Of a DNA stretch of 64,000 bases, positions 2 through 62,293 are shown piece after piece. The notes below the pieces were generated by a model. That model worked only from the letters and a program-made list of their open reading frames with translations, was not told the origin of the DNA and did no database searches. The position numbers were made by a program, and so were the translations under genes. Position 1 is the stretch's first letter, and each line of letters begins with the position of its first letter. This DNA is from Solicola gregarius (lineage in GTDB: Bacteria; Actinomycetota; Actinomycetes; Propionibacteriales; Nocardioidaceae). Location of the stretch: NCBI RefSeq assembly GCF_025790165.1, contig NZ_CP094970.1, forward strand, positions 2,232,001-2,296,000, in the 5' to 3' direction.

Positions 2-889
2 CGGCGAGCCGATGTGTTGGTCGAGAACTTCCGTACCGGTTCGCTCGACCGGCTCGGCCTCGGGTACGACGACGCGGCAAGGCTCAATCCGAGCCTCGTG
101 TACTGCTCGATCACCGGGTTCGGCAGCGGGGCGGGCGCCGACCTTTCGGGGTACGACTTCGTCGTCCAGGCGCTCGGCGGCCTGATGAGCATCACCGGGG
201 ATGCCGATGGAGAGCCGACGAAGGTCGGTGTCGCGCTGGTCGACGTACTCACGGGCAAGGACGCCGTGATCGGCATCCTCGCGGCCCTCGCAGAGCGGGA
301 GCGCAGCGGCCTCGGCCAGCGGGTCGAGGTGAACCTGCTGTCGAGCCTGCTCGGCTCGCTGGCGAACCAGGCGTCGGCCTACCTCGCCACCGGTGAGGCT
401 CCCGGCCGGATGGGCAATCGCCATCCGTCGATCGCACCGTACGAGACGCTGCACTGCCGCGACGGGATTCTCGCGGTGGCGTGCGGCAACGACGGCCAGT
501 TCCGCCGGCTCGCAAAGGCGCTGGGTATCGATGCGCTGGCCGACGACGAGCGCTTCGCCACGAACCCCGCGCGGGTGGCCAACCGGACGGCGATGGTGGA
601 GGCGCTCGAGTCGGTGCTGCGTACCGGCGACACCGCGCACTGGCAAGCCGTCCTGAACGACGCGGACATCCCGGTGGGTGAGGTCGGCGACATCGGGTCC
701 GCGATCGAACGAGCGCGTGAACTGGGCCTCGACCCCACCGTCGAGGTCGGCCCCGATCATCCGCCACAGGTGCGGCACGCGCCCACCTACTCGCGGAGTA
801 CGGTTGGTATACCAACGCCTCCGCCCACGCTCGGGCAGCACAACGACGAGGTCCGCCGGTTCCTGGCGGCCGGAACGAGGAGCACATGA
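2..889 (+). CDS. CaiB/BaiF family CoA-transferase (5' truncated by window edge)
   Basis: Family III CoA-transferases move CoA between carboxylic acids in the cytosol. The reading frame is open to the first base and begins inside the conserved RADVLVENF segment, so the N-terminal third, including the expected catalytic Asp, lies outside the window. The visible part shows the family signatures LVYCSITGFG, YDFVVQALGG and, near the C-terminus, PPPTLGQHNDE. The stop overlaps the start of the following acyl-CoA dehydrogenase by 4 bp, so the two are translationally coupled. A glutarate or other dicarboxylate CoA-transferase role is inferred from that partner. A perfect 14-bp palindrome lies within the coding sequence at 803-816. 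Confidence 0.92.
   Translation, partial: RRADVLVENFRTGSLDRLGLGYDDAARLNPSLVYCSITGFGSGAGADLSGYDFVVQALGGLMSITGDADGEPTKVGVALVDVLTGKDAVIGILAALAERERSGLGQRVEVNLLSSLLGSLANQASAYLATGEAPGRMGNRHPSIAPYETLHCRDGILAVACGNDGQFRRLAKALGIDALADDERFATNPARVANRTAMVEALESVLRTGDTAHWQAVLNDADIPVGEVGDIGSAIERARELGLDPTVEVGPDHPPQVRHAPTYSRSTVGIPTPPPTLGQHNDEVRRFLAAGTRST
803..816. promoter_or_regulatory. GGTATACC-type palindrome inside the CoA-transferase gene
   Basis: GTTGGTATACCAAC is a perfect 14-bp palindrome lying about 75 bp before the end of the CoA-transferase gene. A shorter copy, CGGTATACCG, sits at 2080-2089 just after the dehydrogenase stop. GntR/FCD regulators often bind GTATAC-centred palindromes. Its place inside conserved coding sequence (VGIPTPP) means coincidence is a real alternative. 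Confidence 0.3.
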
Positions 890-54193: not shown

Positions 54194-55189
54194 CTACTGC
54201 GCCGCTCGGTGTTGCGCTCCCTGGCGGGACGCCCGGACGAGCAGCTTGTCGTACGGTGCGAACTCCTCCGGGCTCACCTTGCGCGGGTTCGGCATGCCGG
54301 CGATCGACGGCCGAGTGCAGGCGAACGTTCCGCTGCCGCCGAAGTGCGCGAGGGCCCGGTTCGCGACGTCGCAGCGGGCAGCGTCCTCCGTGCCGTCACC
54401 CACCGGGTAGCCGATGGCCGCGTTGACCGCGCCCATGTCGAGGTTGTCCGCCATCGCGTTGATGTCGTGTGCGACGGTCCAGTACCAGGTCGCGATCCTC
54501 GGGCTGTGGTCGATCGACATCGCGAGGTCGGGGTCGCCGAGCAGGTCGATGCCGAGGTAGTCACCCGCCGGGCCGTAGTTGAAGTCGCCGGTCAGCTGGA
54601 TGAATCCGCGACCACCGTACGTGCGGGTGTCGCCGTCCTCGCGGCGGTCGTACTCGAGATTCGACTCGTGCGAGAGGGTGGCGACCAGGGCGGCCTTGCG
54701 CTCGGGTGTGGTGATGCCCGCTTCGTTCATCGCCGCGTTCAGGTTCGGCAGTCCTTCGGCGATCCTGTTCGGGTCCCGCACCTTCTCGGGCACGATTGCC
54801 TGGATGTCCTCGACGGTCATGTCGCCCTCGGACGGCGGTGGCTCGTCGGAGTCGCACTCGGCGACCCCGGGGAGTTTGCTCTCAGGAATGTCGACGTACG
54901 CCACGGTCACGTAGCCGTTCAGGGCCGGTACCTTCGCCCACCAGCTGCTGCCGACTCCTCCGCCGAGGTCGACGTACTCGCCGTTGGTCTGGCATTCGAC
55001 GTCGATCGCAGTCGGGCCGGGCAGGGTGCCCACAACCGACGACTGAGTCGTCGCCTCGGCTCGTACGTTGACGTCGTTGCCGTATGTGGTGAACTCGGCC
55101 GCGCTCGCGGGGCTTGCAGCGACGAGACTCGTCGCGCAGATCCCCACGGCGCCGACCGCTGCGCCGAACGCTCGCAGGTTGCGGATCAC
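54194..55189 (-). CDS. Secreted GH19-like chitinase/muramidase with SH3b domain
   Basis: A 331-residue exported hydrolase. The Sec signal peptide ends near SPASAAEF (about residue 30). A bacterial SH3 domain (35-105: NDVNVRAEATTQSSVVGTL) likely binds the cell wall. The lysozyme-like GH19 domain (120-310) has the catalytic Glu in TLSHESNLEYDRR and the conserved TYGGRGFIQLTGDFNYGPAG. It probably cleaves chitin or peptidoglycan. It is next to the kinase/transglycosylase gene, so joint function in wall remodelling is possible. Confidence 0.88.
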   Translation of the reverse strand: MIRNLRAFGAAVGAVGICATSLVAASPASAAEFTTYGNDVNVRAEATTQSSVVGTLPGPTAIDVECQTNGEYVDLGGGVGSSWWAKVPALNGYVTVAYVDIPESKLPGVAECDSDEPPPSEGDMTVEDIQAIVPEKVRDPNRIAEGLPNLNAAMNEAGITTPERKAALVATLSHESNLEYDRREDGDTRTYGGRGFIQLTGDFNYGPAGDYLGIDLLGDPDLAMSIDHSPRIATWYWTVAHDINAMADNLDMGAVNAAIGYPVGDGTEDAARCDVANRALAHFGGSGTFACTRPSIAGMPNPRKVSPEEFAPYDKLLVRASRQGAQHRAAQ

Positions 55190-55292
55190 GGTGCTGTCCC
55201 TTCGTCGACATTCGGTACGGGAGGTCTCTCGCGTACCCCGACGTTGCTGACCTACCCCGACCGAGGCGGGCTTACACCTGTCGTGCGCAGCG

Positions 55293-56870
55293 TCAGCTCG
55301 GAACGGCGAACTCGCGCAGATGGCGGCGTACCTCTGCGGCGTACGCGCGGTACTCGGGCGGCACCCCGCCGAAGTCGCTGACCGTCTTGTCGCTCGTGCG
55401 GTAGGCGACGGCGCGGTAGACGGGGTCGTTGACGGGGACGTTCTCCAGCACGCCGCCGGCCCAGCACAGATAGTCGCTCAGCGCGCGGATCGAGTCGCGG
55501 GCGTTGAAGACCGAACGTTTCGGATGCTCTTCGGCCTTTGCCCAGACCTGGAAGATCGCCGGGGTCCACATGGCGATGCCGTACTCGCCGGTCTGCGGGG
55601 AACGCTTGGCGCGGTCGAATCCCGACTCGGTGGCGAGTACGGCCGCGACGAATGCCGGCGTCACCAACGGATCGGCGCATCGGTGCGCCATCTTCGTGAT
55701 GACGCTCCGATAGCGGGCGGGCACGTCGGCATCCGTGGCGATGTCGCCCGGGGCGCTCGCCGCGGGCACGATCGGCTCAGGCCCGCGGGCCGTACGCTCG
55801 CCGGGCGGGCTCGACGGCGGTGAATCCGGGTCGGAGACGAGCGCGCTCGCGCCGACGGCCGCAACCGCGGCGACCGTCGCGGCGGCGACACCGACGGCGA
55901 TGTGCCAGCGCAGCGTACGGAGGCGGTCGGCCGGACGGTCGGGTGCGGCCGAGCCGGCCTCGATCGGCACGTCGGAGAGCGCCCGGACCCGGTCGGCGAG
56001 CGTACCGGCGAGTGCACCTCGGGCCGACGGGTCACGTTCGAGGCAGGTCGCGATGAGTTCTCGCCAGGGCGCTGCGAGCGTGGGTTCGAGGTGCATACCG
56101 TCGCCGGTCGCCGCGTACTCGCGGACCGCGGTCGCGCGGGTACGTGGGTCGCAGCCCGGGAACGGATGGTGGCCGCCGCTCAACAACCGGTGAGCGAGTA
56201 CGCCGAACGCCCAGACATCTCTGCTCGGGCGGGCCTCGACGCCGCGATCGTCGACCGGCGCCGACCACCATTCGGCGGGTGTGTAGTCGAACGACCCGAG
56301 CTGGGGGATGTATGCGTGCGTGCCGTCGAGCTCGGCGCTGAGGCCGAAGTCGGCGAGTCGGACGTCGCCGTCGTCCATGACGAGCACGTTGGAGGCCGAG
56401 ACGTCGCCGTGGACCCAGCCGGCGTCGTGCACGTCGTCGAGTGCCTGGGCGAGTCCGGTGAGCATCGCGACGGCGTCGGGCGGTGGTGTCTGGTCGGTGA
56501 GCCCGTCGAGTACCTCGCGCAGGCTGGTGCGCGCGCGTTCCATGACGATGACGGTGCAGCCGTCCAGGTGCTTGTCGTCCTCGTCGGCGACGTCGAGCAC
56601 CTCGTACGTCTGGATCAGGTGCTCGCTGCGTACGTTGGCGCCGAAGGCGCGCTCTCGCGACGCGAGGTCTTCGACCGTGGCTCGCTGCGCGGGCGTGAGC
56701 GCGTTGCCCGGCAGGAACTTGCAGGCCGCGATGGACGGGCCTTCGCCATCGACCCGCTCGGCCGCGTACACGCTGCCCCAGCAGCCGCTCGCGATCGGCG
56801 TACCGATGCGCCACGGACCGACCCGGTATCCCTCCGGGACGACAACCGCCCAGCCCCCGCGGCGCGTCAT
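55293..56870 (-). CDS. Ser/Thr protein kinase fused to an extracellular transglycosylase-like domain
   Basis: A 525-residue, three-part protein. Residues 15-300 form a Hanks-type kinase: Gly-loop IASGCWGSVY, ATP Lys51, catalytic WVHGDVSASNVLV (Asp156; HGD replaces HRD), DFG 174-176. A single span (about 323-346) follows. The external C-terminus (about 385-525) resembles lytic transglycosylases/resuscitation-type hydrolases: FVAAVLATESGFD with candidate catalytic Glu415 and YGIAMWTPAIF. Kinases of this type normally carry PASTA or sensor domains outside; a wall-degrading domain there is unusual. Its start overlaps the FHA gene by 4 bp. Confidence 0.85.
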   Translation of the reverse strand: MTRRGGWAVVVPEGYRVGPWRIGTPIASGCWGSVYAAERVDGEGPSIAACKFLPGNALTPAQRATVEDLASRERAFGANVRSEHLIQTYEVLDVADEDDKHLDGCTVIVMERARTSLREVLDGLTDQTPPPDAVAMLTGLAQALDDVHDAGWVHGDVSASNVLVMDDGDVRLADFGLSAELDGTHAYIPQLGSFDYTPAEWWSAPVDDRGVEARPSRDVWAFGVLAHRLLSGGHHPFPGCDPRTRATAVREYAATGDGMHLEPTLAAPWRELIATCLERDPSARGALAGTLADRVRALSDVPIEAGSAAPDRPADRLRTLRWHIAVGVAAATVAAVAAVGASALVSDPDSPPSSPPGERTARGPEPIVPAASAPGDIATDADVPARYRSVITKMAHRCADPLVTPAFVAAVLATESGFDRAKRSPQTGEYGIAMWTPAIFQVWAKAEEHPKRSVFNARDSIRALSDYLCWAGGVLENVPVNDPVYRAVAYRTSDKTVSDFGGVPPEYRAYAAEVRRHLREFAVPS

Positions 56871-57622
56871 GCGTCAGCACCTGACCGCGGGCCGAGGACG
56901 CCGAGATGTTCCTCGGTGACCAGGTTGAAGCGCAGTGCGAGTGCGACGAGGGAGGCTCGTTTGGACTCGGCGCGGTCGCCGTCGGTGGCCGATCGGATGC
57001 GCAACTTGGTCTCCGCCAGGTAGTTGATGTGATAGTCGACGGCCGAGCGACTCATCCGTTCGCCGGTCGGCGCCAGCCGGCGGGCGACATCGTCGCTGCT
57101 CGGGATCGCAACACTCGACGGGTCTCGCAGGCGCGGCTCGCACAGTGCAACGAGAACGCGGAAGTACTTCGAGGTCTCGTCGAGCACGAACGGCCGGACC
57201 GTGGTGTCGCCGGCGACAGTGGGATCGCCGGCGAGGTACGCGTGTTGCGGCGCGTACACGTGGAGGTCGTACGTGCCTGCGTCGACGGGGATGAGCAGGC
57301 GGGACAGCTCGAAGGGCACGGGAGCGTCGGCTCGCCCGGGTGGGATCTTGACGTGCTCGCCTGCCCCTTCCAGGTTCTCGACGACGTACGTGACCGCACT
57401 GGCGTTGGTGAGCAGCCAGTAGTCGGCGACCGCGCGGATCGTCCCCGCGCGGCGAGAGACCTCGGCGCTCTGCAGGGTGAGGTCGACGGAGGTGTCCGGG
57501 CTGCCGCGCCCGAACGTGAGCGATTGGCCGGGCTCGAGATCGCGTACGCCGCGGCGACGAGTGGTTTCGTCGCAGCCCGGGCTACGGGTAAGGGTGACGT
57601 CTTCGACGGTGACGGACGACAA
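56867..57622 (-). CDS. FHA-domain protein with C-terminal helical (HTH-like) region
   Basis: A 251-residue cytosolic protein. Residues 30-90 form an FHA phosphothreonine-binding domain (LTFGRGSPDTSVDL, AEVSRRAGTIRAV). The C-terminal part (about 145-235) contains SSDDVARRLAPTGERMSRSAVDYHINYLAE, quoted at 178-207, a winged-helix-like pattern. The TTG start follows GGAAAG. It overlaps the kinase gene by 4 bp, so the kinase probably phosphorylates it or a partner it binds. A hairpin (57646-57664) lies in its leader. It could be a phospho-controlled transcription factor; DNA binding is inferred. Confidence 0.82.
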   Translation of the reverse strand: MSSVTVEDVTLTRSPGCDETTRRRGVRDLEPGQSLTFGRGSPDTSVDLTLQSAEVSRRAGTIRAVADYWLLTNASAVTYVVENLEGAGEHVKIPPGRADAPVPFELSRLLIPVDAGTYDLHVYAPQHAYLAGDPTVAGDTTVRPFVLDETSKYFRVLVALCEPRLRDPSSVAIPSSDDVARRLAPTGERMSRSAVDYHINYLAETKLRIRSATDGDRAESKRASLVALALRFNLVTEEHLGVLGPRSGADA

Positions 57623-57664: not shown

Positions 57665-57788
57665 GGGCCTATGGGGTGCACGTACTGTTTTACCGCAATC
57701 GTCCCACTTTTAAACACCCCCTGTAGTGGGTCGCTTGGTCGCCGGACGTGATCGCGCCCGTCGACGGCGCCGTCGCGCGCGTACTGGT

Positions 57789-61053: not shown

Positions 61054-61315
61054 GATCGGATCTCCTGAACGGTGGCGTGATTGCAGCGGGGGCGCCTGAG
61101 ACGTAATGAGCCTGCATCGCGTGGGTCGCGTCGGTCAACGATTCGATGGCGACTCCGCGACAAACGGCGTGATCGCTGCGACCAACGGTCCTTCGTGTCC
61201 TGAAGGGCTGCTCCGTTGTTCGACCGCAATCGCGACGTGGTACCTAGGGACAGCTGCACGGATAGGTGACATCTGATCTGTGGTGCCGTGAGGTGCTGCT
61301 GGAAGGATGCGCATC

Positions 61316-61605
61316 ATGCCGAAGCCGTATCCGAAGGAGTTCCGTGCCGATGTTGTCCGGGTCGCTCGCGATCGTGGTCCGGAGCAGACCATCGCGCAGA
61401 TCGCGAAGGATTTCGGGATCTCCGAGACGTGTCTGCAGACTGGCTGCGTAAGGCCGACGTCGACGACGGAAGTCGTCCTGGCCTTACCGCTGAAGAAGGG
61501 CGAGAGAACCGCGAACTGCGCAAGCGAGTCCGGCTGCTGGAGCAGGAGAACGAGGTCCTGCGGCGGGCGGCTGCGTATCTGTCGCGTGATGTGAACCCAA
61601 AATGA
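61316..61605 (+). pseudogene. IS3-family OrfA (transposase HTH subunit), frameshifted
   Basis: Starts PKPYPKEFRADVVRVARDRG and has the HTH TIAQIAKDFGISETCLQ. It then goes off frame near 61438, where one base is missing (the other frame reads DWLRKADVDDG). The second frame carries the leucine-zipper tail ENRELRKRVRLLEQENEVLR and ends at 61605. The lost base prevents normal OrfA and the usual programmed OrfAB fusion. Confidence 0.85.
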
Positions 61606-62293
61606 TGTACCCGCTCGTCCGTGAGTTGGCCGTCGACGGTGTCCCCGTCACGGTGACGTGCCGGGTGCTCAAGATCGCTCGTCAGCCGTACTACCGGTGG
61701 CTGGGCGACCCGATCACCAGTACAGAACTCGGAGAGACGTATCTGACCAACGCCGTCTTCGATGCCCACCGCGACGACCCGGAGTTCGGCTATCGGTATC
61801 TGGCCGATGAGGTCCGAGCCACCGGCTATGCGGTTGTCGATCGGACGGTGTGGCGGATCTGTGCGACCAACGGCTGGTGGAGCGTGTTCGGTAAGAGGCG
61901 TGGCAAGAACGGTAAGAAGCCGGGGCCACCGGTCCACGACGACCTAGTCCAACGCGACTTCACTGCTGATGCGCCGAATCGGTTGTGGCTAACCGATATC
62001 ACCGAACACCCAACCGACGAAGGCAAGCTCTACTTGATCGGCACCGCATGGCCGGCTCGATGGGCCAAGTCGGCGCCGCCGGCGACAACGCCGCGATGGA
62101 GTCGTTCTTCGCGCTGCTGCAGAAGAACGTCCTGGACCGCCGCCGCTGGAACACACGAGACGACCTCCGGATCGCGATCATCACGTGGATCGAACGGAAC
62201 TACCACCGCCGACGCCGACAAGACGCGCTCGGCCGATTGACCCCCACCGAGTACGAGACCATCGTGAACCAGACGGTCGCACTGGCGGCCTAA
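61602..62293 (+). pseudogene. IS3-family OrfB (DDE integrase subunit), internal deletion
   Basis: Starts MMYPLVRELAVDGVPV; the first catalytic Asp is in LWLTDITEHPTDEGKLYL. The frame then breaks near 62036, and the other frame resumes at GSMGQVGAAGDNAAMESFF (catalytic Glu) and ends LTPTEYETIVNQTVALAA. The middle part that normally holds the second Asp (HTDRGSQF-type motif) is absent, a loss of roughly 50-60 residues plus a frame change. The element cannot transpose on its own. Confidence 0.87.

Follow-up and report, generated by a model that had tools for sequence, protein, structure and literature searches.

A Ser/Thr kinase with a transglycosylase-like outer domain, encoded in an overlapping gene pair with an FHA-like protein

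A kinase gene that overlaps the gene of an FHA-like protein

On the minus strand of the window, by which we mean the whole 64,000-nucleotide stretch of Solicola gregarius DNA that was analysed, lie genes for an FHA-like protein, a membrane Ser/Thr kinase and a secreted GH19-type hydrolase (Table 1). The reading frames of the first two are found where the original prediction had placed them, with the start of the kinase gene inside the end of the FHA gene so that the two overlap by 4 bp. The FHA gene begins with TTG, at a position where aligned relatives have GTG or ATG starts. The GH19 gene follows downstream of the kinase gene on the same strand, after a gap of 103 bp. Elsewhere in the window, open reading frames resembling an IS3-type transposase pair are visible by eye at 61288-62293 (+).

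Table 1. Features of the locus, with window coordinates and the evidence for each
Feature	Coordinates	Strand	Evidence or position
FHA-like protein gene, 251 aa, TTG start	56867..57622	(-)	
FHA-like part, residues about 26-125			alignment of 16 relatives; beta-rich model; weak FHA fold matches
GerE/LuxR-like HTH (candidate), C-terminal in the FHA protein, residues about 150-245			hhalign with GerE domains; five-helix model
Membrane Ser/Thr kinase gene, 525 aa	55293..56870	(-)	Pkinase and PK_Tyr_Ser-Thr matches; conserved pair
Kinase domain, residues about 23-286	56013..56804	(-)	Pfam match; invariant columns
Single membrane span, residues about 323-345	55836..55904	(-)	sequence; hydropathy of all tails
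Outer SLT-like domain (putative sensor), residues 366-525	55296..55775	(-)	Pfam SLT; model and fold matches; motif table and tree
Secreted GH19-type hydrolase gene, SH3_3-like N-terminal part	54194..55189	(-)	Pfam matches; gene clusters
29-bp block GTTTAAAAGTGGGACGATTGCGGTAAAAC	57687..57715	(-)	upstream of the FHA gene

Examination of the kinase bears out what had been claimed for it: Lys51, Asp156 in a non-canonical HGD loop, a DFG motif and one membrane span. The domain matches Pfam Pkinase (1e-23) and PK_Tyr_Ser-Thr (2e-24), and its catalytic set of Lys51, Asp156, Asn161 and DFG is intact, as in Hanks-type Ser/Thr kinases. The catalytic loop reads HGDVSASN, as opposed to H[GA]DLKPxN in nearly all relatives, and Arg residues flank the membrane span on the kinase side. 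No match to PASTA repeats was found in the window kinase, which scores 65 bits with the PknB_PASTA_kin profile against a cut-off of 450.

The original prediction staked its case on the FHA-kinase pair being shared with relatives, and the pair is conserved far beyond this genome. Profile searches recovered the FHA protein from 10 of 396 genomes across the phylum, from 5 of 295 in its own family and from 55 of 121 in one Streptomycetaceae genus. Downstream of the FHA gene, on the same strand, there is nearly always a kinase of the same group, and the exact 4-bp overlap recurs in 67 of the 84 called pairs. A search with the tail, the part of the kinase beyond the membrane span, located it in further families as well (coded f90, f91 and f92). 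An FHA relative lies upstream of the tail-bearing gene in f91 and f92; this check covered loci other than those of f90 and L230 (f91), where the sequence is too short or the kinase belongs to a different, PknB-like group.

The 29-bp block GTTTAAAAGTGGGACGATTGCGGTAAAAC is identical in the sister species and is likely to be the pair's own promoter region. Even with up to 3 mismatches allowed, the genome has no second copy of it, which rules it out as a regulon motif; because this conserved upstream block is unique, no regulon can be read from it. By eye, its GTTT-N17-GGTAAA spacing recalls stress-sigma promoters. A sigma-70 promoter and terminator scan of the locus found none, and a dyad and 8-mer search upstream of FHA genes returned only coding-start and close-relative signals. 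In the gap between the kinase and GH19 genes (55190-55292, minus strand), the stretches GGTGTAAGC, GGGGTAGGTCA and CGTCGGGGTACGCG are conserved in the sister species and perhaps constitute a separate GH19 promoter.

The outer domain and its relation to secreted transglycosylases

The prediction that the tail is lysozyme- or transglycosylase-like was upheld by profile search and by structure prediction. The window tail alone exceeds the Pfam SLT cut-off (22.0-22.3 bits versus 21.3), and SLT is matched by all 25 of the 25 aligned tails (best 5e-9). The ten PDB structures closest in fold to the tail model (pLDDT 76, pTM 0.76) are lysozymes, transglycosylases or a cell-wall hydrolase, matched with probabilities up to 0.97 but E values of 0.16 or above. 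Searching PDB sequences with the tail, and also with profiles, gave no significant match. Sequence and predicted fold thus agree on an SLT/lysozyme-like domain, the fold search not being significant alone.

The closest outside relatives of the tail are secreted Streptomyces SLT proteins. Secreted actinobacterial SLT proteins with NlpC/P60- or M23-like parts share the Glu and cysteine positions of the tail (Glu415, Cys398 and Cys469 in the window kinase), but two other motifs set the groups apart: the secreted proteins keep GIAQF and AYNAG in 13 of 13 cases, whereas the kinase tails carry GIA[MR]W and mostly YR[TS]S (GIAMW and AYRTS in the window). Specifically, 35/35 copies of the type found on the kinases (hereafter sensor copies) have lost both the Gln of GIAQF and the Asn-Ala-Gly of AYNAG, compared with 0/13 secreted relatives. 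A tree of 48 SLT sequences separates these 35 sensor copies from the 13 secreted ones with support 100/99, and the motif split follows it perfectly. Within the motif set of family 1 lytic transglycosylases (Glu, GxxQ, AYNAG), the sensor copies retain only the catalytic Glu, which is present in 48 of 49 kinase tails; the lone exception, L073 from the same family as the window, has Gln. The second aromatic position in sensor copies is Tyr, Phe, Trp or His, mostly Tyr. Because two motifs kept by the secreted relatives are replaced in every sensor copy, the tail is probably not a wall-cutting enzyme as such. Of the wall-cutting or wall-binding enzyme fold proposed originally, the fold holds and the cutting probably does not.

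This version of the domain is not confined to the FHA-coupled kinases. Two PknB-like kinases (L231, L233) and two HTH_31 membrane proteins (L197, L232) carry it on the outside. That signalling proteins of unlike cytoplasmic output share one version of the domain argues most strongly for a sensing role, and from its sequence the sensor-type SLT domain looks like a receptor made from an enzyme. Among matches at E <=1e-30 with frames read, some of them fragments at contig ends or frameshifted and a few read in part, no free secreted copy was seen. L197 and L232 each consist of an N-terminal HTH_31, a span and the outer sensor-type SLT domain, and it is possible that they are a one-protein form of the kinase-FHA pathway.

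Conversely, related kinases carry other outer domains: besides SLT, the tails are of PG_binding_1 (1e-14), Inhibitor_I36 (1e-10) and SH3-like types, the last named by eye. Mapped onto a tree of 87 kinase domains, the four tail types require at least seven changes, and SLT, I36 and PG_binding_1 tails are intermixed within one supported kinase clade. As far as these comparisons go, the outer domain is swapped on a constant kinase-FHA base, one of the replacements being a clear wall binder.

These observations bear on whether the outer domain could instead be an active, membrane-tethered lytic transglycosylase, with the kinase controlling cutting from inside or the product of cutting serving as the signal, and with the changed motifs altering specificity only. 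The nearly invariant Glu fits an active enzyme and so counts against a receptor, and the prevalence of Tyr at the second aromatic position points the same way. However, the uniform loss of the Gln and Asn-Ala-Gly from the sensor copies, the copy with Gln for Glu, the exchange of SLT for a binding domain, PG_binding_1, on a shared kinase base, and the use of SLT on HTH_31 regulators, in which an enzyme would serve no obvious purpose, all argue against it; we consider an active enzyme unlikely.

The FHA-like protein and its helical half

The partner protein had been described as an FHA domain plus an HTH-like region. The first part is weak by sequence: the window protein has no Pfam match at E 1, and the Pfam FHA profile is touched by 4 of 16 relatives at an E value of only about 0.06. 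Its pattern FGR...VSRRAG...LLTNxS follows FHA logic, but the usual His is Ala. Among 101 relatives the phosphate-contacting residues are conserved as Gly-Arg in 98 and Ser in 86, and both are present in the window protein; the Ser position is Pro in 10 of the 101. The structure model has a beta-rich first half followed by five helices, and a fold search with it weakly matched the FHA domains of APLF and Ki67 and the MH2 domain of SMAD. An FHA assignment fits the GR...SR...N pattern and the beta-rich model.

Compared by hhalign with GerE/LuxR HTH domains of this genome, the helical half gave a moderate match (score 28.2, P 1e-4, probability 57); controls scored at most 14.8 for 30 column shuffles, 8.8 when reversed and at most 14.1 for unrelated domains. 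A search of the FHA protein for a GerE/LuxR HTH by Pfam gave no match. From these comparisons, the FHA protein is probably a regulator that binds DNA. In bacteria, FHA proteins frequently target other proteins instead of DNA, and the HTH assignment is based on one moderate profile match. On a less likely reading, the helices form a protein-binding module and the pair exerts direct control over envelope enzymes or division, in the way that PknB works via FHA proteins. Against this, the GerE alignment spans the scanning helix, the recognition helix and the helix that follows, its score is about twice that of the best shuffle, and the sensor domain is attached to HTH_31 elsewhere. We give the protein-binding module a low probability, and continue with the FHA protein as a putative transcriptional regulator.

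Some FHA-HTH relatives depart from the pair arrangement. L074, L138, L139 and L140 have no kinase of the same group adjoining; the FHA Ser is lost in all of them and the Gly-Arg in three. In L075, from the same family as the window, a more distant FHA-HTH-like gene lies directly after a PknB-like kinase gene, which suggests a wider FHA-HTH group with ties to kinases.

Secreted neighbours and a possible wall-sensing pathway

The hydrolase encoded after the window kinase matches Glyco_hydro_19 (4e-9) and SH3_3 (1e-5) in Pfam. The original prediction had made it part of the neighbourhood, but the survey removes it as an obligatory partner: the GH19 gene is retained only in the window and the sister species L072, inside wider synteny. 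What recurs is some adjoining secreted protein, in many cases one that acts on the wall. A product predicted to be secreted by a crude signal-peptide rule is encoded just after the kinase in 44 of 85 cases, compared with 129 of 585 genes at other locus positions (Fisher 4e-8), and by 28 of 42 same-strand genes just after the kinase; counted by gene cluster, the comparison becomes 17/47 versus 82/373 (p 0.04). Genes after or near the kinases encode M23 peptidases, an M23-I36 fusion, PG_binding_1 proteins, an Rv2525c-like hydrolase with PG_binding_1, and a beta-lactamase-like protein whose cluster contains a stretch related to the N-terminal part of the window GH19 protein. In L014, that N-terminal part has a relative in the secreted protein beside an FHA-kinase pair. 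Outer domains and neighbours tend to correspond: PG_binding_1 tails lie near secreted proteins with a related domain in 5 of 6 cases (1 of 79 for other tails), and I36 tails near I36 proteins in 5 of 15 (1 of 70). Because the loci are related and not independent, these counts are a pattern and not a tested rule.

Taken with the architecture and gene coupling described above, we lean, by a little, toward a wall-sensing kinase-regulator pair in which an outer SLT fold has turned receptor and the signal passes to transcription. The ligand, the phosphotransfer and the DNA binding, and hence the wall-to-transcription pathway, are what we infer. The outer domain would probably bind peptidoglycan glycan or its fragments rather than cut them efficiently; binding would alter the kinase through the single membrane span, and the kinase would autophosphorylate. 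The co-translated FHA protein could then dock on a phosphothreonine, and its GerE-like HTH could bind DNA and shift transcription of envelope genes, the adjacent secreted wall protein gene being one possible target. The pathway is weakened by the faint FHA signal, the Ala in place of the usual His, the Pro at the Ser position in a tenth of relatives and the moderate HTH match.

Several parts of such a pathway have precedents. PASTA kinases bind muropeptides (PMC4601284). Like the window kinase, PknB, PrkC and StkP are one-span Ser/Thr kinases with a wall-related outer domain; unlike them, the window kinase lacks PASTA, its outer domain is SLT-like (PG_binding_1, I36 or SH3-like in relatives) and its gene is coupled to an FHA-HTH gene. 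In PknH-EmbR of Mycobacterium tuberculosis, a Ser/Thr kinase acts on an FHA-containing transcription factor that controls wall genes (PMC4601284), and the window pair likewise couples a Ser/Thr kinase with a putative FHA regulator. EmbR, however, is ordered as OmpR-type HTH, BTA and FHA, whereas the window protein has its FHA-like part first and the GerE-like HTH last, without BTA, and the window genes overlap; no EmbR-type domains were matched by Pfam in the window protein. The RsgI anti-sigma factors of Clostridium thermocellum sense different substrates and control cellulosome genes, and their outer modules resemble the enzymes. Both RsgI and BlaR1 resemble the sensor SLT domain in using enzyme-like or carbohydrate-binding outer modules, related to the secreted proteins controlled, as sensors. 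RsgI works by releasing a sigma factor and BlaR1 as a protease receptor, whereas the window output is a kinase with an FHA-HTH partner. The window pair combines the ideas of PASTA kinases, PknH-EmbR and RsgI, with a different sensor fold and domain order. In the portion of the published work available to us, our search found no description of an SLT-type outer domain on a kinase, which does not prove absence. The data do not support placing the pair in one family with the PkaH-PkaJ cluster of S. coelicolor kinases; there each gene is transcribed separately and the spacers measure 93-173 bp, and FHA is not mentioned (PMC4416010).

A broader proposal, which we hold tentatively and think rather less than evenly probable, is that actinobacteria possess a dedicated receptor version of the lytic transglycosylase fold, borne by kinases and HTH membrane regulators alike, together with a family of plug-in FHA-coupled kinases whose SLT, PG_binding_1, I36 or SH3-like outer domain is matched to that of the adjoining secreted wall protein. 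If that matching is true, each unit watches the substrate of the protein under its control. Sensing of wall state in bacteria is known mainly from PASTA kinases and a few protease receptors, and the signature of GIA[MR]W for GIAQF and R[TS] for the NA of AYNAG would make such receptors findable in sequence data. A sensor with a transglycosylase fold also raises the question of which glycan feature is read, and the outer domains that have been exchanged in nature on a single kinase-FHA base supply ready material for testing ligands.

The same units might instead sense foreign attack, by lysozymes, proteases or competitors' wall hydrolases, and not the cell's own wall. The pair is patchy among species and often forms tandem arrays in Streptomyces, its tails include the I36 inhibitor family, and its neighbours include I36 proteins and hydrolases; patchiness has other causes, however, and nothing in these data separates own from foreign wall as the ligand. 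We regard this reading as very improbable. Several Streptomyces carry two or three FHA-kinase pairs near each other, and at L105, L108, L116, L097, L104, L115, L119 and L144 such neighbouring pairs bear differing outer domains, like a sensor bank.
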